Part shown: piece by piece, positions 3 to 27,345 of the stretch
Layout: each line of letters opens with the position of its first letter
Position numbering within the stretch: the stretch's first letter is position 1
Assembly (NCBI GenBank): GCA_016215105.1
Contig: JACRLJ010000153.1
Coordinates: 1,340-34,887 of the forward strand
Origin: Candidatus Hydrogenedentota bacterium
GTDB lineage: Bacteria > Hydrogenedentota > Hydrogenedentia > Hydrogenedentales > SLHB01
Direction of reading: 5' to 3'
DNA: 33,548 nt
Notes under the pieces: model-generated
What the model saw: the letters and a program-made list of their open reading frames with translations, nothing else
Told to the model about the DNA's origin: nothing
The model's database searches: none
Program-made: the position numbers and the translations under genes

Positions 3-350
3 CGCTTCACCGCCGTCCTCAAACCCAAAAAGAAGAACCGCGCCACCCTAACCTCGAGCGACATGGCCCTGCTCCACCTAAGCGCCGCCCAAATCCCCGA
101 AGCCCCCGAATCGCCGCCTATCACCGATACTTCATCAGTCCCTGTGGTCCCTTGCGTCCCTTTGGTCCCTGAAACCCACCAAGTCCACCCCCCCACTGCC
201 CCCCGCAAGGCGCAGTCCACACCACCAAGATCCTGCCGACCTCAGGAGCCCCCCTGCGGTCTTCCCGACCCCAAACTCGCCGCCCTCCAATGCTTCCTCG
301 CATTGACCACTCCTTCGGAGCGCGCGCCTCGTCACAGGCCACCCGGCTGA
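3..350 (+). CDS. Possible 3' end of a truncated gene, unknown product
   Basis: The frame is open from the left window edge to a TGA at 348-350. The first ~35 codons look protein-like (Lys/Arg-rich, then MALLHLSAAQ). The rest is Pro-rich, and part of it is the translation of a 9-bp-period repeat (VPVVPCVPLVP), so the tail may be read-through of intergenic repeat DNA. I recognise no domain. It may be the C-terminus of an upstream gene or chance open frame in GC-rich DNA. Confidence 0.25.
   Translation, partial: RFTAVLKPKKKNRATLTSSDMALLHLSAAQIPEAPESPPITDTSSVPVVPCVPLVPETHQVHPPTAPRKAQSTPPRSCRPQEPPCGLPDPKLAALQCFLALTTPSERAPRHRPPG
138..170. repeat. 9-bp-period GTCCC/GGGAC array
   Basis: Nearly four copies of a 9-mer (GTCCCTGTG, GTCCCTTGC, GTCCCTTTG, GTCCCT). 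On the complementary strand this is GGGAC plus four variable bases. The same 9-bp phase with a GGAC core occurs at 7841 and 27346. Confidence 0.7.
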
Positions 351-9618: not shown

Positions 9619-10950
9619 CTACTCGTGGCGGAGGGCTTCGACGGGGTCCATATCGGCGGCGCGCAGGGCGGGGTAGATGCCGAAGATTACGCCGACCAGG
9701 CCTGAGATCGAGAAGGCGATGAGCGGCGACCAGAACGTAACAATCGTTTTCATTTCGGCGAAATAGGTAATGAAGAAAGGAATGGCCAGCCCAAGTCCTA
9801 CGCCGATCACGCCGCCGACTCCGGACAAGAGCACGGTCTCGATCAGGAATTGCAGCACGATATCGCGGCGTTTCGCGCCCAAAGCGCGGCGAATACCGAT
9901 CTCCCGCGTGCGTTCCGTCACGCTGGCCAGCATGATGTTCATGATTCCAATTCCGCCGACAATGAGCGAAATCGCGGCGATTGCGCCGAGCACCACGCTG
10001 AAAATGCGCTTGGTGCGTTCGGCTTGGCGTAACAATTCCAGCGGGACCACGAGCTCGTAGTCCTTCTTCTTATGGTTGCGCTTCAGCAATTCCGAGATGA
10101 TCAAGGAGGACTCGACCACGTGTTCCGGGCTGTCTACTTTCACCGTGGCCTCGTGCAACTCGACCCGTTCGGCGGCGCGGCTTCCTGAGCTGCTCTTGAT
10201 TAATATCTCGCCAAAGCGGCGCCGGGCGGCAGTCAAGGGGATGAACATTCGATCCGTCGCCGGCGAGGAGTCAGCGGGGCTTGCTTGAGGGGTTTGACCA
10301 GATCCCTTGTCTCCCCCGCCGTTGCCATTGGATGTCCCGGCAACGGCGCGATGGGACTTCAGTTCCATTACGCCGATGACTTTGTAGTAGTCCGAGCCAA
10401 CACGAACTGTCTTTCCCATGGGCTCGTCGATTGGGAAGAGTTGGCGCGCCATGTCGTGGCCGAGCACACAGACGTTGCTGACTGCCTGCATCTCCAATTC
10501 CGAAATAAAACGTCCGCGCTCGACCCGATGATTGTTGATTATGGGATACCAGGGCACGGTTCCGACGATTTCACAATCGACGCGCTGCTTAGCGTTCCAG
10601 ACATCCGTCCGGATCACACGGCCGGGAACCATCACGGTCACGTTGGGAATGGTCGCGCGAATACGGCTGATGTCCGCGTACGTCAATCCGTACTCGACCA
10701 TGTAGGTCGTGGTGCTTGAGGTCTTCTTCTCGTCAGGGGGTTTGACGCTGCGGATGATGATGTTGTTGCTGCCGAGGCTGCGGATTTGTTCCTGGGCCTC
10801 GTAGCTGGCGCCTTCGCCAATGGCCAACATGGCGATCACGGAACAGACGCCAAACACGATGCCCAGGACAGTGAGCAACGAGCGCAAGCGGTGCAGCCAC
10901 AGACTCTTGAGGCCCAGGCGGATCGTCCGCCAGAGGCGTGTAACGCCCAT
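9619..10950 (-). CDS. MacB-like ABC transporter permease (FtsX family)
   Basis: About 443 residues from the ATG at 10950; an upstream in-frame TTG at 11004 would overlap the ATPase gene by 26 bases and adds an unlikely Pro-rich leader. An N-terminal membrane helix (LLTVLGIVFGVCSVIAML) is followed by a large MacB-type periplasmic domain containing a Gly/Ser/Pro-rich insert (GTSNGNGGGDKGSG). Three C-terminal helices follow (AISLIVGGIGIMNIMLASV onward, with TREIGIRRALGAKRRDI between helices). MacB proteins use ATP to drive periplasmic substrates out through a TolC channel rather than move them across the inner membrane. It is the last gene of the efflux operon. Unlike E. coli MacB, the ATPase is a separate protein. 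Confidence 0.88.
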   Translation of the reverse strand: MGVTRLWRTIRLGLKSLWLHRLRSLLTVLGIVFGVCSVIAMLAIGEGASYEAQEQIRSLGSNNIIIRSVKPPDEKKTSSTTTYMVEYGLTYADISRIRATIPNVTVMVPGRVIRTDVWNAKQRVDCEIVGTVPWYPIINNHRVERGRFISELEMQAVSNVCVLGHDMARQLFPIDEPMGKTVRVGSDYYKVIGVMELKSHRAVAGTSNGNGGGDKGSGQTPQASPADSSPATDRMFIPLTAARRRFGEILIKSSSGSRAAERVELHEATVKVDSPEHVVESSLIISELLKRNHKKKDYELVVPLELLRQAERTKRIFSVVLGAIAAISLIVGGIGIMNIMLASVTERTREIGIRRALGAKRRDIVLQFLIETVLLSGVGGVIGVGLGLAIPFFITYFAEMKTIVTFWSPLIAFSISGLVGVIFGIYPALRAADMDPVEALRHE

Positions 10951-10978
10951 GGCATTGCCCGGTGGCCTCGGAGGGCGG

Positions 10979-11671
10979 CTAGTGGCGTTTGTGATCGTGC
11001 TCAAGCTGACCGTCCCGAAGTCGAATGACTCGCTTCGCCCGTTCCGACACCTCGTCTGAATGCGTCACCATAATCAACGTCTTGCCCTGTTGATGAAGCT
11101 CATCGAACACCGCCAGGATGTCGTTTCCGGAGCTCGAATCCAGGTTTCCCGTCGGCTCGTCCGCGAAGATGATAAGCGGATCGTTGACCAGGGCCCGGGC
11201 TATGGCCACGCGTTGCTGCTGACCACCGGAAAGCTCGAACGGTTTGTGATCCAACCGGTCTTTCAGTCCGACGCGCTCGGCGATTTGTGTCGCCAGCATG
11301 CGGCTGTAGCTTTCCGGAACCCCTTGGTAATACAACGGCACTTCAATGTTCTCGACCACGGACAGTTGCTGGATAAGGTTGTATGACTGGAAGATGAAGC
11401 CAAGCCGTGTCCCGCGTATGGCCGAAAGACTGTCATCGTCTAATTGTGATACGTCATCATCTCCCAAGATGTATTGTCCGGAAGTCGGTCGGTCGAGGCA
11501 TCCCAGGAGATTCAGGAGTGTGGACTTTCCGCAGCCGGACGGCCCCATGATCATCACATAGTCGCCTTCCGTAACTTCCAGGGATAGGCCGCGCAGCGCC
11601 TCGACGGTGACTGGGCCCATTTGATAGGACTTGCGCAGATCCTGCAGACGTACGATGCAACGATTCGTCAT
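10979..11671 (-). CDS. ABC transporter ATP-binding protein (MacB/LolD-like)
   Basis: 230 residues, a single ABC cassette. Walker A is GPSGCGKS (43-50), the signature LSGGQQQR starts at ~147, and Walker B with FADEPTGNLD places the key Asp/Glu at ~171-172. The switch His is in MVTHSD. The TGNLD form is typical of the MacB/LolD/FtsE group, which partners FtsX-type permeases. Its ATG overlaps the adaptor stop by 4 bases (ATGA), which implies translational coupling. It should power the MacB-like permease encoded next. Confidence 0.92.
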   Translation of the reverse strand: MTNRCIVRLQDLRKSYQMGPVTVEALRGLSLEVTEGDYVMIMGPSGCGKSTLLNLLGCLDRPTSGQYILGDDDVSQLDDDSLSAIRGTRLGFIFQSYNLIQQLSVVENIEVPLYYQGVPESYSRMLATQIAERVGLKDRLDHKPFELSGGQQQRVAIARALVNDPLIIFADEPTGNLDSSSGNDILAVFDELHQQGKTLIMVTHSDEVSERAKRVIRLRDGQLEHDHKRH

Positions 11672-13440
11672 TTCGGAGTCTCACCCGGTGACGGCGCCTC
11701 GCTGTTCGGGGGCCTGCTATCGGGGCGGGGTTGTTCCGGCTCGTCCTTCTTATTCTTTTCTGATTCCGGCGTTCCTTGGTCCTCTCCTCCGTCTTCTTGC
11801 GCGGTGGGACTAAGGAGCAGTACGGATTCCCCTTCCTTCAGTCCGGACTTGATCTCGATAGACTCATCGGTAAACTCGCCCACCGTAACCACCCGCTGTT
11901 CGGGGGACCCTAGCCCTTTCGCCACGTAGCAGACGTGTTCGCCGTCGCTTTCACTCACGGCCTGCACCGGCACGTAAATTACGTCCGATAGTTCATTCAC
12001 GAGGATCAGCGCCTGGGCGCTCATACCCGGACGCAGCCAATCGTTGGAGCCGTCAATGGCGATGTTTACGGTGTACAGCTTCAGATCGGGGTTCATCCAG
12101 CGCTGCTGAGAATCCGGAAGTACAGCGACTTTCATCACCTCGCCTGTAAGGACTTTATCCTGAAATGCGTCGAGGGTAATGGTCGCCTTGAGTCCTTTCT
12201 TGACCTGCTTGATAGCGGATTCGTGGACCTTAACGCTGACCGACATTTTGGTCATATCGGGTATGGTGATGATGGGCTGACGCTGGCGCACCATCGCGCC
12301 TTCCTTGATTTGATCGTCCCCGTAGAAATTGCGTTCGTTCCCGCCGTAAACGACCAACCCGGCCCGGTCGGCTTTGATAACACAGCGGTCGATTTGTTCC
12401 TGCAATTCCTTCGTCTGTTGCTCTTCCAATTGATATCTCGCTTCGGAAGCTTTCAGGGTCGCCTCCGCCTGAGACAGATGGGAAATGGATTGCTTCTTGG
12501 TGCGTATCAGCTTTCGGATCGATTCCTCATAGTCCGAGAGGAGTTTTTCGGCCATTTTCGGGAACTCATACTCGGCGTACAGTTGCTTCGCGGTGTTGGT
12601 GGAATCTTGCGCGACCGTGGCGCGCTTTACCTTCATTTGGTCCTGCTGCAACTCGGTGTTGGTCGCAAATTCTTTCGAGGCGAGTTCCTTCGTCCATTTG
12701 AGGGCGTCCTCCGCGACCAGCAGGTCCTGAGACGCCAGTTGGTTTTCGGACTCGAGCTTGTTTTTCATTTGCTTGGCGTCGCCCTGCAACTTGGGGTTTT
12801 GAGCCAGGGCGCTGAAATCGATGGCCGCCCGTTTCGATTGGACGTCAGCGCTTTCTTCCTTCTCTCCGGTTGGATCAAGCGCGAGTGAATCAAGTATTTC
12901 GCGGCCCAACTCGGCGCCGAGATACTTCTCGAAGTCGATGCGCTTGAACTTTACGTCGAGGGCGGCAGCGGTTATATCGCTTTCGTTTTGCTTCTGCGTA
13001 ATCTCGAACTGCTCCTGGGCCTGCGCGCGCGACGCTACGGCGCCTTGAAACTCGATTTGCTGTTGGGTCATGCGCTGCAGCAAGTCCGCGGAGTCGAGTT
13101 CGACCAGGACTTTGCCGTTCTTCACATCGTCCTCGGTAACTTGGTAGCCTTCCTCGACGATGCTCAGGATTTTGGTTTGGCCCTTGACGTCGGACTTCAC
13201 TTCCTGAAACTCGCGGGCCTCCATCTGGCCGCCTTCGAGCACCGTAATCTTCAAGGGGCCGCGTTTGACGGCAAATACCGCGCCATTGCTTTGCGGCCCC
13301 GCGCCGCGTCCAAACACCAAGTATCCGATTATTAGCACGGCTACGGGAATCGCCAGCTTCCATGTCCATGGTTTGTTCATGAAAAAGCGCGATAGCGATT
13401 TACCTTTAGGTCCGGTACCCGCTTCAGGAGCGCTTGTCAT
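11668..13440 (-). CDS. Periplasmic efflux adaptor (HlyD/MacA-like), long coiled coil
   Basis: About 590 residues from the ATG at 13440, chosen for GGAGG nine bases upstream; it lies inside the end of the channel gene (17-base overlap). One inner-membrane anchor (LAIPVAVLIIGYLVFG) is followed by a short lipoyl/barrel strand (VKRGPLKITVLEGG). A very long helical hairpin follows (about 90-360, rich in Gln/Glu/Lys), then the return lipoyl half (IDRCVIKADRAGLVVYGG), the beta-barrel and the membrane-proximal domain. The Pro/Glu/Ser-rich tail is disordered. Typical MacA is near 370 residues, so this adaptor is much longer, mainly in the hairpin. It should bridge the MacB-like permease to the TolC-like channel. 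Confidence 0.88.
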   Translation of the reverse strand: MTSAPEAGTGPKGKSLSRFFMNKPWTWKLAIPVAVLIIGYLVFGRGAGPQSNGAVFAVKRGPLKITVLEGGQMEAREFQEVKSDVKGQTKILSIVEEGYQVTEDDVKNGKVLVELDSADLLQRMTQQQIEFQGAVASRAQAQEQFEITQKQNESDITAAALDVKFKRIDFEKYLGAELGREILDSLALDPTGEKEESADVQSKRAAIDFSALAQNPKLQGDAKQMKNKLESENQLASQDLLVAEDALKWTKELASKEFATNTELQQDQMKVKRATVAQDSTNTAKQLYAEYEFPKMAEKLLSDYEESIRKLIRTKKQSISHLSQAEATLKASEARYQLEEQQTKELQEQIDRCVIKADRAGLVVYGGNERNFYGDDQIKEGAMVRQRQPIITIPDMTKMSVSVKVHESAIKQVKKGLKATITLDAFQDKVLTGEVMKVAVLPDSQQRWMNPDLKLYTVNIAIDGSNDWLRPGMSAQALILVNELSDVIYVPVQAVSESDGEHVCYVAKGLGSPEQRVVTVGEFTDESIEIKSGLKEGESVLLLSPTAQEDGGEDQGTPESEKNKKDEPEQPRPDSRPPNSEAPSPGETPK

Positions 13441-15247
13441 CCGTAACTTCCTCCCACTGCCCATTGTCCTTGATGTATAAGATACCCATACTGCTCCAAA
13501 AGCGGAGCCGGGCTATGGTGTGATCGACCACGGCGGCTGTCAGGGCGTTGCGCGAACTGATAAGCGCGTTCTGCGCATCGATCTGATCCAGCGCTGTAGC
13601 GCGGCCTGCTTGACTCAATAGATCCTGTTCTTCAACTCGTCCTTGGTTGAGTTTCACGCCCAATTGACGGATTTCGAAGCTTCGCTGGGCTTGCTCGAGG
13701 TCGCGGTAGGCGGCGCGGACCTGGAGTTTCGTGTTGTCCTCGGACAGGCTCAACGCCCGGGTTGCGCGATCGAGCGCAATGAGCGCCGCCCGGTAGGTGT
13801 TGCGTTCCTGTTTGCGATCAAGGCCCAGATCAGCGTCCAGTCCGACTCCCCATTGCGAGCGCTCGAAATCGAGATTGGATAAATTGTCGGCGCCGCTACT
13901 TGTCACCTGACCGTTAACCAGAACGTCCAACTGCGGCTTCAGTCCATTTGCGGCGACTGTGACTTTCCTGTCGGCATCGTCTTTCTGGTCCCTTGATGTG
14001 TACAGGTCCAGGCGGGCCTTCAGCGCTACCTGGATCGCGTCTTCGCTCGTCACCGCGGGCACGGCCAGCTCTTTCAGCATCAGTTCGTCCAGTTCCGAAC
14101 TGGCGAGCGCTACCTGCGCATCCGTGGAGAGCCCGAGTTGGATCTTGAACTGATCGAGGGCTTCCTTGTAGACGCGGATCGAGTTGTTCCAGGCATCCTT
14201 TGCGTCGAGCTCCGCCTGTTCCGTGCGTCCCAATTCGGACTTCTTCAGGCGGCCTGCCTGGGACAAGGCGCGCTGGCGCTCGACGGCCCGCTCCTGGGCC
14301 TTGTAACCAGCCCAATTATTACGCACGGCATCGTGGTTTTGTAGCACGCGGTAGAACGCGGAAGCGATGTTGACGGTGAATTCCTGGCGATAGCGCGCAA
14401 ACGCGCGCAATTGGTAGAGACAGTCCCGTTCCGACTGGGTAAGGGTTTCCTTGACCACTTTGCTGCCGGCGCCGCGCAGCAAGGGTTGGCGGATACTCGA
14501 TACGAGGGCAGAGGTGGCGCTCACTCGCGGATCTCCCGTGAGAAATCGAAGGAAATTGGAGGTCAGGTCGACGGCGATCTGAGCGCCGCCGGAAAGAAGG
14601 ACGCCTACGCCGATTCCGGTTTGACCGGAGAGGCTTCGATCATCCACCACATGCGCTTGGGGTTGATCGAGGCCGGTCAGTCGTGAGGCGCTGGTGATGA
14701 GCTGGGCATAGCTGCTGAGGAGGTCGCCGGGCGTGCCCACCAGAGTCCCAATTCCTTGGGCAAGTTCAGGAGAGCGGTTGAAAATGGCCGCGGCGTCGGA
14801 GAACTGGGTGAGGTCGCGAGTGGTTCGTCTATAGGTTCCGCTGGCGGTTCCGGAAAAGATGGGCGCAAATTGATGGCGCGCGAGACTCAGGTTTAGCGCA
14901 CTGAGATAGACCGCCTCCTTTTGTGACTGGTATTCCCGGCTGTTCTTTACCGCGATAGACAGGGCCTGTTCGAGCGTGAGCACAGTCGAACCGATCTCGC
15001 GTTTCCCCTCGTCCCCCATGAACTCGTCGGCCTTATCCAATGCCGGGAGTCCCGCGAGATCTGGCGCTCCCTGAGTTTCGATCGAGAATTCCGGAGTCAT
15101 GCCGGGCACGTTTGGCGTCTTTTGGCGGATGATGCCATACGCCTCGCGGTCCGCAGACTGGCGATAATGCGCAGTGGAGCATCCCCAGAACGCCATCAGC
15201 GCGGAGAGCAGAATAGAAATATCTCGAACACAGGTACAGGTACGCAT
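13424..15247 (-). CDS. TolC-like outer-membrane efflux lipoprotein
   Basis: About 607 residues from the ATG at 15247; the longer frame to 15382 adds a stretch without signal features. The N-terminus MRTCTCVRDISILLSALM followed by AFWGC looks like a lipoprotein signal with the modified Cys near residue 23, although the lipobox is not canonical. Two outer-membrane-efflux (TolC) repeats follow, with long amphipathic helices (LSLARHQFAPIFSGTASGTY; SLSEDNTKLQVRAAYRDLEQ). These form the outer-membrane barrel and periplasmic tunnel. It is the first gene of the four-gene tripartite efflux operon, 170 bases downstream of ribF. Substrate unknown; peptides, lipids or macrolide-like compounds are all possible. 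Confidence 0.88.
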   Translation of the reverse strand: MRTCTCVRDISILLSALMAFWGCSTAHYRQSADREAYGIIRQKTPNVPGMTPEFSIETQGAPDLAGLPALDKADEFMGDEGKREIGSTVLTLEQALSIAVKNSREYQSQKEAVYLSALNLSLARHQFAPIFSGTASGTYRRTTRDLTQFSDAAAIFNRSPELAQGIGTLVGTPGDLLSSYAQLITSASRLTGLDQPQAHVVDDRSLSGQTGIGVGVLLSGGAQIAVDLTSNFLRFLTGDPRVSATSALVSSIRQPLLRGAGSKVVKETLTQSERDCLYQLRAFARYRQEFTVNIASAFYRVLQNHDAVRNNWAGYKAQERAVERQRALSQAGRLKKSELGRTEQAELDAKDAWNNSIRVYKEALDQFKIQLGLSTDAQVALASSELDELMLKELAVPAVTSEDAIQVALKARLDLYTSRDQKDDADRKVTVAANGLKPQLDVLVNGQVTSSGADNLSNLDFERSQWGVGLDADLGLDRKQERNTYRAALIALDRATRALSLSEDNTKLQVRAAYRDLEQAQRSFEIRQLGVKLNQGRVEEQDLLSQAGRATALDQIDAQNALISSRNALTAAVVDHTIARLRFWSSMGILYIKDNGQWEEVTDDKRS

Positions 15248-15417
15248 GAATGCGGGTGGTATATCCCCGAGAACAAGAACGACGCGCAGGCCGGTCGTCC
15301 CGTTCAGATCATGACCAAACGTATTGTGGAGTGAAGCGATTTTCCGCCGTTTGTCGCGCCAAAGAGGTATCGCAGCGAGCAAAACCGGTCGGCAAGTCCC
15401 AATCCAATATTCTGTGA

Positions 15418-23793: not shown

Positions 23794-24090
23794 CTACGGT
23801 TTATTCTCACTGAGCTTTGTGAGGTACTTTTCCGGGTCCTTCGCGAATTCGTCCTTACAGTAGTCAGAGCAAAAGCCGTACTGTGCGCCCCGGTAGCTAT
23901 ACACGTCCGCGACCGCGTTTTCGAGGCGCATTCCGCAGAACGGATCCACTTTCAGAGCCAGTTTGTCGGACGAGACCTTCGGGGCCGGCTCGGTCAATGC
24001 CGGGGCGGGGGCGGGTCCCGCGGACTCGGAACACCCCGGACCGGCCAGAAGAGTCAGGGCGGCTAACACTGTGACGGTTATTCCACGCAT
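23794..24090 (-). CDS. YHS-domain lipoprotein
   Basis: 98 residues from the ATG at 24090, which has AAAGGA eight bases upstream; a longer frame to 24129 lacks a ribosome site. The signal MRGITVTVLAALTLLAGPGC suggests a lipoprotein with Cys20 modified, though Pro at -2 is unusual. A Pro/Ala spacer leads to a YHS domain (DPFCGMRLENAVADVYSYRG, then YGFCSDYCKDEFAKDPEKYL). YHS domains bind metals through their Cys residues and occur in copper and other heavy-metal systems. Likely role: metal binding at the membrane face outside the cytoplasm. It follows the prepilin-like gene by 84 bases on the same strand, so may share its transcript. Confidence 0.88.
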   Translation of the reverse strand: MRGITVTVLAALTLLAGPGCSESAGPAPAPALTEPAPKVSSDKLALKVDPFCGMRLENAVADVYSYRGAQYGFCSDYCKDEFAKDPEKYLTKLSENKP

Positions 24091-24174
24091 ATACGAAGTC
24101 CTTTCTATTGAGGAAGCGCCACCGCCCACGAGTCAGTCGTCGAGCCCGGGGCGGTAGCGTCATCGACTACGATC

Positions 24175-25035
24175 CTACATCATACTTCCTTCATGTAGAA
24201 TTAGTCCTGCTTGATTCATCGGGAAGAGTCCGGCTCCGTCCGACCACTGATCGTAGGCGACGTGACCGTCCATATAGAGTACGTTCGCGCCTCCCGGAAC
24301 GTGGTTGAAGTGCGCCACTTCGTCGGAGATGGCGTCGTGCATGACCACGAAAGTTGATTGCGCCTGGGCTGTTCCCGCCTGGTTGTTGATGTCGGTAATG
24401 AAGAAGCGCTCGACGCCTTCCTTGAGCCGGGGTATGGACAACTTACCGTCGACGGGGGCGTTGAACGGGAAGTCTCGATCCACGATGCTAGGATCGAGCG
24501 CCATGTCCGCCGCCAGAGCAGACACCCCGTCCTCGAAATTCTCCAGGTCGGTTTGGGTCTTGAACATTTCCGAAATGAACGCCCAACCGTAGTAATGGTA
24601 GGGGTCGGAATGTAATTCGCAGGGCTCGACCTTTCCGTTGTTGCTGAATCCTGGTATCTCCGTCCAGTGCTCGTACCCCGTCTCTCCCTTGTCGTAGGTA
24701 TCGAGCGCGCTGCCTCCCGCGCTATTGCTGGGGCAGATCAGCACGTTGAGATCGCTCAAGTACTCCGGATAGACGGCGGCGCCGTCGAATATCTGGTCCC
24801 ACTTGAGGGCGGTTCCCGAGCAGTCGAATATCTTCATTTGGGGAAACTTGTCCCTGTTCTCCCCGGTATACATCTTGAACACGATGCCCATCTGCTTGAG
24901 GTTGTTTTGGCATGATGCCCGCCGCGCCGCCTCGCGCGCCCGCGCCAATGCCGGCAGCAGGATTGCCGCCAGAATGGCGATAATGGCGATTACGACAAGT
25001 AGCTCAATCAGTGTAAAACCATTGCTCTTGCGCAT
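24175..25035 (-). CDS. Prepilin-like protein, H-Xn-DG type (left arm)
   Basis: 286 residues from the ATG at 25035, with GAGGAG nine bases upstream. The N-terminus [18 protein letters not shown] is a type IV/type II prepilin signal cut after Gly6 by prepilin peptidase; the helix [20 protein letters not shown] anchors it. The body carries Cys pairs ([21 protein letters not shown]). The C-terminus has [20 protein letters not shown], the processing-associated H-Xn-DG motif common in Planctomycetes/Lentisphaerae-type genomes. Here there are ten, not nine, residues between His and Asp-Gly. It is a clear paralogue of the protein at 26361, with the same motif order throughout. Probably an envelope-displayed pseudopilin; ligand unknown. 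Confidence 0.9.
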
Positions 25036-25202
25036 GGCTGTTATCTCCTCATAGTAGTTCTTCGACATGTAATTATCAGGAAGACGTGGATTACGACGCC
25101 GCGACAGGGTACAGGCGAGCTGGGGCCCCTGTAGTTTTCGGACGCGTCAACACACGGGTGCGGCGCCGCACAGAGTGTCTCCGCGGCAATTGCGAATTTG
25201 GG

Positions 25203-25607
25203 CTATACTTGGAAGGCGGGCGCGAACGGCGGCGCGCGCCCGAATAACAGGCGCCACGCAGAAAGGTCCTCGCGACGCGCTGCGGGAAGCGCCAGGCAGA
25301 TTTCGATATTCTGGGATGGGGCTGGGACTGCGGAATAGAGCGGTGGCTCGATCAACGCGCCAATCAGTAGACAAAAGGCGCATGCCGGCGGGGAAGAATT
25401 TACCGATGCCGAATCGGAAGCGGGATGTTCTGGGGCGCGGCGCGGTGAGTTCCCGTCTTCGCAGCATGCCTCCGCGGTTCGGGCTCGGCAACAGGCATCC
25501 GTCTGGGTGGCGCAAAGTCCGGGAATGATCGCGCGAACCGCGCCAAGGGTATAGAACGCCAGTATGAGCGCGGCCGGAATTCGCGACGCGCAGGCTACTC
25601 TAGACAC
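25203..25607 (-). CDS. Small Cys-rich exported or membrane protein with CxxC (left arm)
   Basis: 134 residues with a GTG start. A hydrophobic N-terminus (IPAALILAFYTLGAVRA) looks like a signal or anchor. It is followed by a Cys cluster (DACCRARTAEACCEDG), then CAFCLLIGALIEPP and a C-terminal AWRLLFGRAPPFAP. CxxC followed by a hydrophobic helix and a terminal R-x-PP resembles DUF2946-type small proteins. The same layout is found in the divergent protein at 25903, so the two look like distant paralogues. The ribosome site is weak and an overlapping plus-strand frame exists, so the gene call is moderate. It precedes the left prepilin-like gene by 167 bases. Confidence 0.55.
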   Translation of the reverse strand: MSRVACASRIPAALILAFYTLGAVRAIIPGLCATQTDACCRARTAEACCEDGNSPRRAPEHPASDSASVNSSPPACAFCLLIGALIEPPLYSAVPAPSQNIEICLALPAARREDLSAWRLLFGRAPPFAPAFQV

Positions 25608-25779: not shown

Positions 25780-25808
25780 TTGACAAGGCCCTTTTGAGAA
25801 TATATTCT
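25780..25808 (+). promoter_or_regulatory. Strong sigma70-type promoter for the right arm
   Basis: A perfect -35 TTGACA (25780-25785) is followed, after exactly 17 bases, by -10 TATTCT (25803-25808). It reads toward the CxxC gene at 25903 and the prepilin-like gene at 26361. The -10 box lies inside the palindrome at 25794. Confidence 0.75.
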
Positions 25809-25811
25809 CAA
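25794..25811. promoter_or_regulatory. Perfect 18-bp palindrome, Fur-family-like operator
   Basis: TTGAGAATATATTCTCAA is identical to its reverse complement. Its half-site TGAGAAT/ATTCTCA resembles Fur boxes, though the spacing here is two bases rather than the usual one. It covers the spacer end and the -10 of the promoter, the classic position for a repressor. Which regulator (Fur, Zur, PerR or another) cannot be told from this window. Confidence 0.6.
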
Positions 25812-25816
25812 TCTAA

Positions 25817-25839
25817 GGCGTTTCTTCCTGTGAAACGCC
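25817..25839 (+). other. 5' leader hairpin
   Basis: GGCGTTTC (25817-25824) pairs perfectly with GAAACGCC (25832-25839) across a 7-base loop, directly downstream of the -10 box, so it would form at the very 5' end of the transcript. No T-tract follows. It may protect the mRNA end or be a second protein-binding site. Confidence 0.5.
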
Positions 25840-25902: not shown

Positions 25903-26220
25903 ATGCTGAACCATAGAATCAAATACTCTCTGCCAAGCCTGATCCCGGCGACGTCCCTGTGCCTGCTTCTGTTGCTCGGAATAGCCGCCGGACACGGTCT
26001 CGTCCCAGGCGTCCACTCCGCTTCTTCTCCCAGCCACGACTACTGCGGTTTCTGCGTACTGCTGTCATCACCTGCCGTGACCGTTGCGATCGTCGTGTTC
26101 TCTATCCTCTCACAGCGGCAGGGTTCTGCGATTGCCTTCGCATCTCCTTGTCCTCATACACGGCGTCACGTTACGGCGTGGTCGCTTCGTGGCCCCCCCG
26201 CGCTTCCTTCCCACGCATAG
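25903..26220 (+). CDS. Small membrane protein with CxxC, DUF2946-like (right arm)
   Basis: 105 residues from an ATG. Begins with a long hydrophobic stretch (LIPATSLCLLLLLGIAAGHG), a signal or anchor. HDYCGFCVLLSS (a His-x-x-Cys-x-x-Cys motif) is followed by a second hydrophobic helix and a His-containing tail, VTAWSLRGPPALPSHA. The CxxC plus terminal RGPP pattern resembles DUF2946-type proteins, often seen near metal genes. The same order recurs in the opposite-strand protein at 25203. It is driven by the palindrome-controlled promoter at 25780 and followed 140 bases later by a prepilin-like gene. The ribosome site is weak. Function unknown; metal sensing or handling is inferred. Confidence 0.65.
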   Translation: MLNHRIKYSLPSLIPATSLCLLLLLGIAAGHGLVPGVHSASSPSHDYCGFCVLLSSPAVTVAIVVFSILSQRQGSAIAFASPCPHTRRHVTAWSLRGPPALPSHA

Positions 26221-26360
26221 TCCGCCATCAACCGTTCGCAACCAAGGGGATTCTCTGGCTCGAGGCGCCGCCGCGCTTACTAGAATCGCGGCACGCGCCG
26301 GATCGAGGACCCCACTCTCAACAACGATATCCACGCATTCGCGTGAGAAGGAACTAGAAC

Positions 26361-27257
26361 ATGAGAAACCGTGACCGCAAAGGTTTTACTCTTATCGAAT
26401 TGCTTGTCGTTATCGCCATCATCGGAATTCTTGCGGCGATACTCTTGCCTGCGCTCTCGCGGGCAAGGGAAACGGCGCGCCGGGCCAGTTGCCAGAACAA
26501 CCTCAAGCAAATGGGTCTGGTGTTCAAGATGTACTCGAATGAAAGTCGAGACAAGTATCCGCCGATGAAATCGCAGGATTGCGCCGGAAACCTGGTTGGC
26601 TGGGCGACCATATTCAAAGCGGACGCCATTTATCCCGAGTACCTGACCGATTTCAATGTGTTGGTGTGCCCGAGCGCAGCCTCAGGCGCTAGCGCCGTCG
26701 ACATTTTCGACCAGGGCAACACCTCGTCGGCGTTCTATAGGAACTTGGCATGGCCCCAGAAGAAGGATGGTGTCGTCCAGCCATGTGAAGTTTTTGAGCA
26801 CCCGTACGTTTACTTGGGTTGGGTGATTCAGGACGGGATAGCGAACACTTCCCTAAAGACTGCGGCTCTAGCGACGAATCGCGATAACTTGTATCCGCAG
26901 TTGCTTACGGGGTCCGGACCGGCGCTCGTCGACAAGGATTGGAGCGTAGTATCCGGCACGGGAGACGCCGGCGGCAATACCATATTCCGTCTCAAGGAAG
27001 GGATCGAGCGCTTTCTGATCACGGATATCAACAATCCCGCAGGCGCCGCCCAAGCCCAGTCTCAGATCGCGGTGATGTGGGACGAAATCTCGGGCGATGC
27101 GGCGAGTCATTTTAATCACGTCCCAGGCGGCTGCAATCTCTTGTACATGGACGGACACGTGGCCTACGTCAAGTACGAAGGCGCGTTCGGAAGCTCGTTC
27201 CCGGTAAATGACGGGGGAATCGTGTTTCACGAGGCCAGCCATCTGCAATTCCCGTAG
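26361..27257 (+). CDS. Prepilin-like protein, H-Xn-DG type (right arm)
   Basis: 298 residues from the ATG, with a purine-rich ribosome site (GAAGGAAC). The prepilin signal [20 protein letters not shown] is cut after Gly8. The shared blocks with the left-arm paralogue run in the same order: [56 protein letters not shown] and [20 protein letters not shown]. The C-terminal motif again has ten residues between His and DG, and one position here is Cys. The shared Cys residues could form disulfides or bind metal. Probably a pseudopilin-like envelope protein; partner genes for a secretion machine are not in this window. Confidence 0.9.
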
Positions 27258-27288: not shown

Positions 27289-27316
27289 GCCGGGAGGGGA
27301 TTTCCTCTCCCGGCGG
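27289..27316 (+). terminator. Hairpin after the prepilin-like gene
   Basis: CGCCGGGAGGGG and CCTCTCCCGGCG pair over 12 positions with one G-T pair and loop ATTT. It sits 31 bases after the stop codon at 27257. There is no U-run, so it may be a weak or protein-assisted terminator, or an mRNA 3' stabiliser. Confidence 0.45.
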
Positions 27317-27345
27317 CCTGCGCTCGTCGAGCGCAGGCGTACGGG

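Follow-up and report, generated by a model that had tools for sequence, protein, structure and literature searches.

Two questions are raised by this locus of a Candidatus Hydrogenedentota bacterium: which regulator would act on a strong promoter whose -10 box lies inside a perfect palindrome, and what the genes behind that promoter do. The window, that is, the whole 33,548-nucleotide stretch of DNA analysed here, is part of contig C8 in a 6.7-Mb, 95%-complete assembly. Its relevant features are listed below, by position and strand.

23794-24129, minus strand: YHS-domain lipoprotein-like gene (PF04945, E 2.4e-14), after the second prepilin
24175-25035, minus strand: second DUF1559 prepilin-like gene, behind the divergent leader; a longer start is possible at 25068
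25203-25607, minus strand: divergent second leader ORF, 134 aa, with CAFC (25371-25382), 44 residues and RAPP (25227-25238)
25780-25808, plus strand: sigma-70-type promoter TTGACA-17-TATTCT, -35 at 25780-25785, -10 at 25803-25808
25793-25812, no strand assigned: candidate Zur-type operator, 7-2-7, core TGAGAAT-AT-ATTCTCA, with the palindrome TTGAGAATATATTCTCAA at 25794-25811; top matrix score
25817-25839, plus strand: 8-bp hairpin at the predicted mRNA start, perfect stem GGCGTTTC-7-GAAACGCC
25903-26220, plus strand: leader ORF of the DUF2946/CruR/CutF type, 105 aa, with CGFC, 44 residues, RGPP and a 6-residue tail
26044-26055, plus strand: CGFC codons of the leader ORF, putative metal-binding motif
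26188-26199, plus strand: RGPP codons, putative ribosome-arrest motif (RAPP/RGPP arrest uORFs, PMC10987492)
26204-26216, plus strand: anti-Shine-Dalgarno stretch TTCCTTCCCACGC, just 3' of the arrest codons, pairing with 26341-26353
26341-26353, plus strand: Shine-Dalgarno region of the prepilin gene, GCGTGAGAAGGAA, predicted to be sequestered when the helix forms
26361-27257, plus strand: DUF1559 prepilin-like gene, 298 aa (PF07963 and PF07596)

Downstream of the plus-strand prepilin gene, at 27316-27338, there is a perfect 11-bp inverted repeat with a 1-nt centre (GCCTGCGCTCGTCGAGCGCAGGC) and no T run. Elsewhere in the window, a row of genes for a MacB-type permease, an ABC ATPase, an HlyD-type adaptor and outer-membrane efflux proteins occupies 9619-15382 on the minus strand; we saw no link between this row and the leader/operator locus.

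The promoter and its palindrome within the genome

The promoter with its 17-nt spacer, the 9+9 palindrome covering the -10 box and the 8-bp hairpin are all present where the original prediction had placed them. The description of the promoter as the best in the window holds as far as the strength of the consensus is concerned, but not as a sole first rank, because a second site, at 427, also matches 10 of the 12 consensus positions. Each taken alone, the promoter consensus and the hairpin are not unusual: in a 4-kb region, one promoter-like site of such quality was found against 1.9 in shuffled sequences, and perfect 8-bp stems are common, with 19 in the window. Promoters of the form TTGACA-16/17/18-TAnnnT also precede many of the related leaders described below. 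The regulatory role proposed for the hairpin draws no support from these relatives, across which it is not generally conserved; there is no clear counterpart at the 5' end of most related modules, and one in that of genome G017.

The palindrome stands apart: the window has no other that is perfect over 9+9 bases, 0.17 being expected, and it is placed where a bound repressor would block transcription. Within its own genome, however, TTGAGAATATATTCTCAA is unique at 0-2 mismatches, an outcome that the original prediction had named as speaking against it. At three mismatches, the sole match in the genome lies inside an ABC permease gene, and pattern searches of the whole genome yielded no convincing further members of a regulon; in one of these searches, the reversed control produced more matches than the pattern itself. 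The significance of the palindrome therefore comes from the relatives rather than from its own genome.

The palindrome compared with znuA operators of the order

In relatives, the intergenic region between znuA and divergent Fur-family genes contains an operator of the same 7-2-7 architecture, TGATAAT-NN-ATTATCA. We trained a position matrix on 12 zur-znuA or znuA sites from other genomes of the order, with the source genome and all leader sites excluded. When the window was scanned with this matrix, the palindrome came out on top at 20.2 bits, the next position reaching 8.8. In the 12-kb region around the znuABC genes of the source genome, the best site was ATTGAGAATGCATTATTGCT, about 125 bp upstream of znuA, a weaker box than the palindrome (18.0, with the next site at 7.2). 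Regions upstream of leaders exceeded 10 bits in 13 of 53 cases compared to 2.7 expected from a background that itself includes real sites.

Direct comparison of the sites gave a similar picture. With up to two mismatches, the original 18-mer was matched in four others of the 60 genomes searched, and in one of these, G044, the match is located directly upstream of a leader of the same type. When up to four mismatches were allowed, 51 leader-upstream regions, not counting the window, gave 5 matches, where the other DNA retrieved led us to expect 0.44. Of 53 leader promoters inspected, several had related palindromes at or beside the -10 box, including TTGATATATGATTATCAA in G035, TTGATAATATGGTATCAA in G018 and TTGATAGCATATTATCAA in G007, where the arrangement TTGACG-8-TTGATAGCATATTATCAA preserves the 8-nt distance from the -35 box seen in the window. 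The pattern TTGAKA-N6-TMTCAA occurs about once per two genomes, with four sites in the family of the source (25 genomes), three of which are at leader promoters, as is one in G035; these counts are descriptive because the pattern was drawn after the sites had been seen. Most occurrences of the relaxed motif elsewhere are intragenic and resemble chance matches. One leader of G021 is preceded by a different palindrome, TACCAAGTGTGCTTGGTA (L026:1187-1204), and followed by an ABC transporter gene, with no prepilin gene.

Operators of this type are not confined to znuA and leaders. About a dozen genomes have TGATAAT-NN-ATTATCA, or a sequence very similar to it, in the promoter of a split-MacB ABC ATPase gene, and in G058 (L222, G058:C363) the gene order is leader, DUF1559 prepilin, split-MacB ATPase, FtsX permease and DUF3299; no operator was found upstream of the split-MacB gene of the source genome itself. 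Many leader-prepilin loci, including orthologous promoters in the same family, have no operator either, so transcriptional control appears to be patchy.

Given the result obtained with the znuA-trained matrix and the presence of the operator between znuA and Fur-family genes, the palindrome is most likely a Zur box, as judged from sequence. The original prediction of a Fur-family member that recognises half-sites separated by two central bases thus agrees with the 7-2-7 operator at znuA, but a profile search with PF01475 gave no match to a Fur-family gene in the 95%-complete source assembly. Fur itself, with its classical 7-1-7 box, was rejected on the 7-2-7 spacing of the sites, and a MerR-type promoter on the 17-nt spacer and the position of the palindrome over the -10 box rather than between the boxes. 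Fur-family genes are present in 52 of the 68 genomes of the order and are divergent to znuA in a dozen or so. Most of the 16 genomes in which none was detected, the source included, keep a ZnuA-family gene. An assembly gap is the simplest reason for the missing gene; loss of zur in the source lineage is a possible alternative. There is no regulator gene adjoining the locus in the window, and none was noticed beside related modules.

The missing gene bears on two other readings of the palindrome. It might serve some other repressor not linked to the locus, of the ArsR, MarR or TetR type for instance, whose recognition sequence happens to resemble a Zur box, zur itself having been lost. The assembly with no Fur-family gene, the lack of an adjoining regulator gene and the half-site TGAGAAT, in place of the commoner TGATAAT, all agree with this, but the same matrix detects the box upstream of znuABC in the same genome, and in relatives the operator lies between znuA and Fur-family genes, so that we consider an unlinked repressor unlikely. 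We find it very improbable that the palindrome arose by chance or is a relic, serving no function today. Its uniqueness in the genome at up to two mismatches, the several orthologous promoters that lack it and the failure of the Fur-family search to reveal a repressor gene would fit such an origin. Against it stand the perfect 18-bp symmetry, at 0.17 expected per window, the position over the -10 box combined with the top matrix score, and the palindrome of G007, located at the same 8 nt from the -35 box.

The leader family and its complementarity to the prepilin ribosome-binding site

The original prediction gave an incomplete account of the locus: it overlooked the principal regulatory element, an arrest-type leader ORF and the complementarity of this leader to the ribosome-binding site of the following prepilin gene. 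The plus-strand leader has a hydrophobic N-terminal segment, followed by CGFC and, 44 residues on, by RGPP, which ends six residues before the C-terminus. It falls marginally short of the Pfam cut-off for DUF2946 (E 1e-4, 23.5 bits, cut-off 23.7), which some relatives exceed. The divergent leader has no Pfam match; it was found with an HMM built from 18 leaders, at 2.2e-13, its own sequence being among the 18. This leader is of a longer, Cys-rich type common to several relatives, PGLCATQ...CC...CAFC...RAPP; no promoter was located for it. The HMM has matches in 45 of the 68 genomes of the order. Across the 18 aligned leaders, CxxC, R and PP are invariant, with identity to the window leader at 17-32%, and about 55 leaders share the arrangement CxxC-42..46-R[AGS]PP. 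In nearly all of these roughly 55 loci, the prepilin signal FTLIEL starts 60-340 nt past the end of the leader; in the plus-strand operon, the gap between leader and prepilin gene is 140 nt. Some loci depart from the simple arrangement: two arrest-type leaders stand in tandem before one prepilin gene in G052, and probably also in G018 (L096, L105), and the gene behind the leader of this type at L147 (G061:C15) looks like one for an outer-membrane efflux (TolC-like) protein rather than a prepilin.

Among 45 module prepilins, Cys and His positions C74, C103, C142, H250, H253, H266 and H290 (window numbering) are conserved. Several genomes of the same family share the downstream gene order prepilin, S41 protease, RNase PH. 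The literature that we searched contained no link between DUF1559 and metals.

Several features of the leader have counterparts in published systems. The DUF2946 protein CruR of Bordetella pertussis (bp2923) is the copper-responsive upstream ORF of the bfrG operon, and its function needs both the CxxC and the RAPP motif, which are 45 residues apart (PMC9426467). CruR and the window leader are alike in being short and heading an operon, in carrying CxxC and a C-terminal RAPP or RGPP at nearly equal spacing (45 vs 44), in the long gap to the next gene (162 bp for CruR) and in a C-rich 3' part. The target of CruR is a TonB-dependent transporter, whereas that of the window leader is a DUF1559 prepilin, and, unlike in the case of CruR, the promoter has a Zur-type operator and the region of the arrest codons is complementary to the Shine-Dalgarno sequence that follows. 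CutF, the leader of cutFOG in Rhodobacter capsulatus, is a relative of CruR (PMC9973294). It resembles the window leader in its apparent export segment, metal-binding-type cysteines and proline-rich C-terminus, and in its operon, too, the Shine-Dalgarno sequence of the gene that follows is masked by RNA structure. In CutF, however, the cysteine motif is CxxxC, the proline motif is another one and the target is a multicopper oxidase; its stem-loop is intergenic, whereas in the window the last codons of the leader form one arm.

A third comparison is with the RAPP-type arrest peptides ApdA, ApdP, ApcA and the RQH family (PMC10951233, PMC10987492), which share with the window leader the C-terminal RAPP/RGPP, the small size and an N-terminal localisation signal. 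These peptides are linked to protein localisation, the following gene being secA, secDF or yidC, whereas the window leader has a CxxC motif and a prepilin target. According to PMC10987492 and PMC12992588, RAPP/RGPP uORFs arrest the ribosome with the third residue of the motif in the P site; arrest by CruR and CutF themselves lacked experimental demonstration as of PMC10987492. The short leader gene of the window probably stalls the ribosome.

In the plus-strand operon, and in the family overall, leader RNA close to the putative stall site is predicted to base-pair with the ribosome-binding site of the prepilin gene. In the window, 26204-26216 and 26341-26353 can form 12 pairs with a duplex energy of -19.4 kcal/mol, and the helix is part of the minimum free energy fold. 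Among 46 modules, the duplex between a leader and its own prepilin gene averaged -12.35 kcal/mol compared to -9.58 kcal/mol for cross-pairs, and none of 20,000 permutations was as low. When the leader segment was slid along the ORF, the excess, about -2.65 +/- 0.54, appeared only for segments beginning close to RxPP; it was greatest between -6 and +6 nt of the motif and faded by 18-24 nt on either side. It also exceeded what the protein sequence dictates: against synonymous recodings that were drawn from local codon use and kept the arrest peptide, the mean z was -0.91 +/- 0.23 (-1.03 +/- 0.34 by genus), and there was no excess in a control 60 nt upstream (-0.07 +/- 0.15). Some 20 modules account for the signal, and about half of the modules show no excess. 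Compared by itself with synonymous recodings, the plus-strand module of the window falls short of significance (p 0.095), and no anti-Shine-Dalgarno helix was seen for the divergent leader/prepilin pair. Several of the regions and tests in this study were chosen post hoc; the least affected are the znuA matrix, the permutation, the offset and the synonymous controls. With the third codon of the motif in its P site, a ribosome should shield most of the stretch that is complementary to AAGGAA.

The same observations allow other views of what the leader does. If the leader worked as CruR does in B. pertussis, release of the stalled ribosome would expose a Rho site in the intergenic region, so that the prepilin gene would be controlled by termination instead of a hidden Shine-Dalgarno sequence. 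Around 26166-26243, comprising the 3' part of the leader and the start of the gap, C amounts to 0.44 and G to 0.22; the 140-nt gap is long, like the 162 bp of CruR, and the divergent module has no anti-Shine-Dalgarno helix. Nevertheless, C-rich stretches occur elsewhere too, on both transcripts, and the complementarity to the Shine-Dalgarno sequence peaks at the arrest codons and is visible in codon choice, neither of which Rho needs; we regard control by Rho as rather unlikely, but as the most serious of these competitors. It is considerably less plausible that the leaders are ordinary small metal-handling membrane proteins whose complementarity stems from C-rich proline codons facing a G-rich Shine-Dalgarno sequence. 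Proline codons are indeed C-rich, the excess is absent in about half of the modules and Pfam still names DUF2946 a "family of unknown function", but once composition is accounted for by the cross-pair, shuffled and synonymous controls, an excess is still seen, restricted to the arrest site, and the leaders, for all their low identity, retain 42-46 residues from CxxC to RxPP, with RxPP near the C-terminus.

A proposed double control of DUF1559 prepilins by metal

Taking these observations together, all of them comparative and computational, we consider it fairly likely that a Zur-type operator over the -10 box of the leader-prepilin operon acts in combination with a metal-sensitive stalling leader that controls translation. 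When zinc is sufficient, a Zur-like repressor would sit over the -10 box and keep the operon off. As zinc falls, transcription would begin and the leader would be translated. With its CxxC motif free of metal, the nascent leader would probably arrest the ribosome at RGPP, and the stalled ribosome would cover the codons just after this motif. Left uncovered, these codons would base-pair with the prepilin Shine-Dalgarno sequence, so that stalling would open the prepilin gene for translation. Binding of metal to CxxC would release the stall, the helix would form and the prepilin would be shut off.

If the leader responds in the sense of CruR, abundant metal would turn the prepilin off through both switches; the sense of CutF is opposite, both published systems responding to copper. 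Thus, by analogy with the studied cases, the leader family points to copper, and the operator points to zinc. Known Zur regulons provide a precedent for the transcriptional part of this arrangement. In Caulobacter, the Zur operators of znuK, znuL and znuGHI overlap the -10 box (PMC4176598), and in Pseudomonas aeruginosa the split-MacB operon PA4063-PA4066 is Zur-regulated (PMC11481552). The operators of the order examined here are similar in their position over the -10 box and in their zinc-uptake and split-MacB targets. They differ in sequence, TGATAAT-NN-ATTATCA with 7-2-7 spacing as against GTTA-N5-TAAC in many proteobacteria, and in being found also on arrest-leader/prepilin operons.

More tentatively, and with somewhat less than even confidence, we propose that in this order DUF1559 prepilins are products of zinc starvation, placed under the joint control of Zur and a peptide of the CruR/CutF type, with the codons at the arrest site serving as the anti-Shine-Dalgarno arm. 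In the literature that we found, metal-sensing leader peptides of the CruR/CutF family have been studied in detail in two cases only. The approximately 55 natural variants described here have invariant motifs and a clear RNA target, and in some cases their promoter also bears a metal switch acting on transcription, so that both the model of arrest and the question of which metal is sensed can be tested directly. For the module-specific DUF1559 prepilins, these variants provide a functional lead, namely, zinc or another metal.
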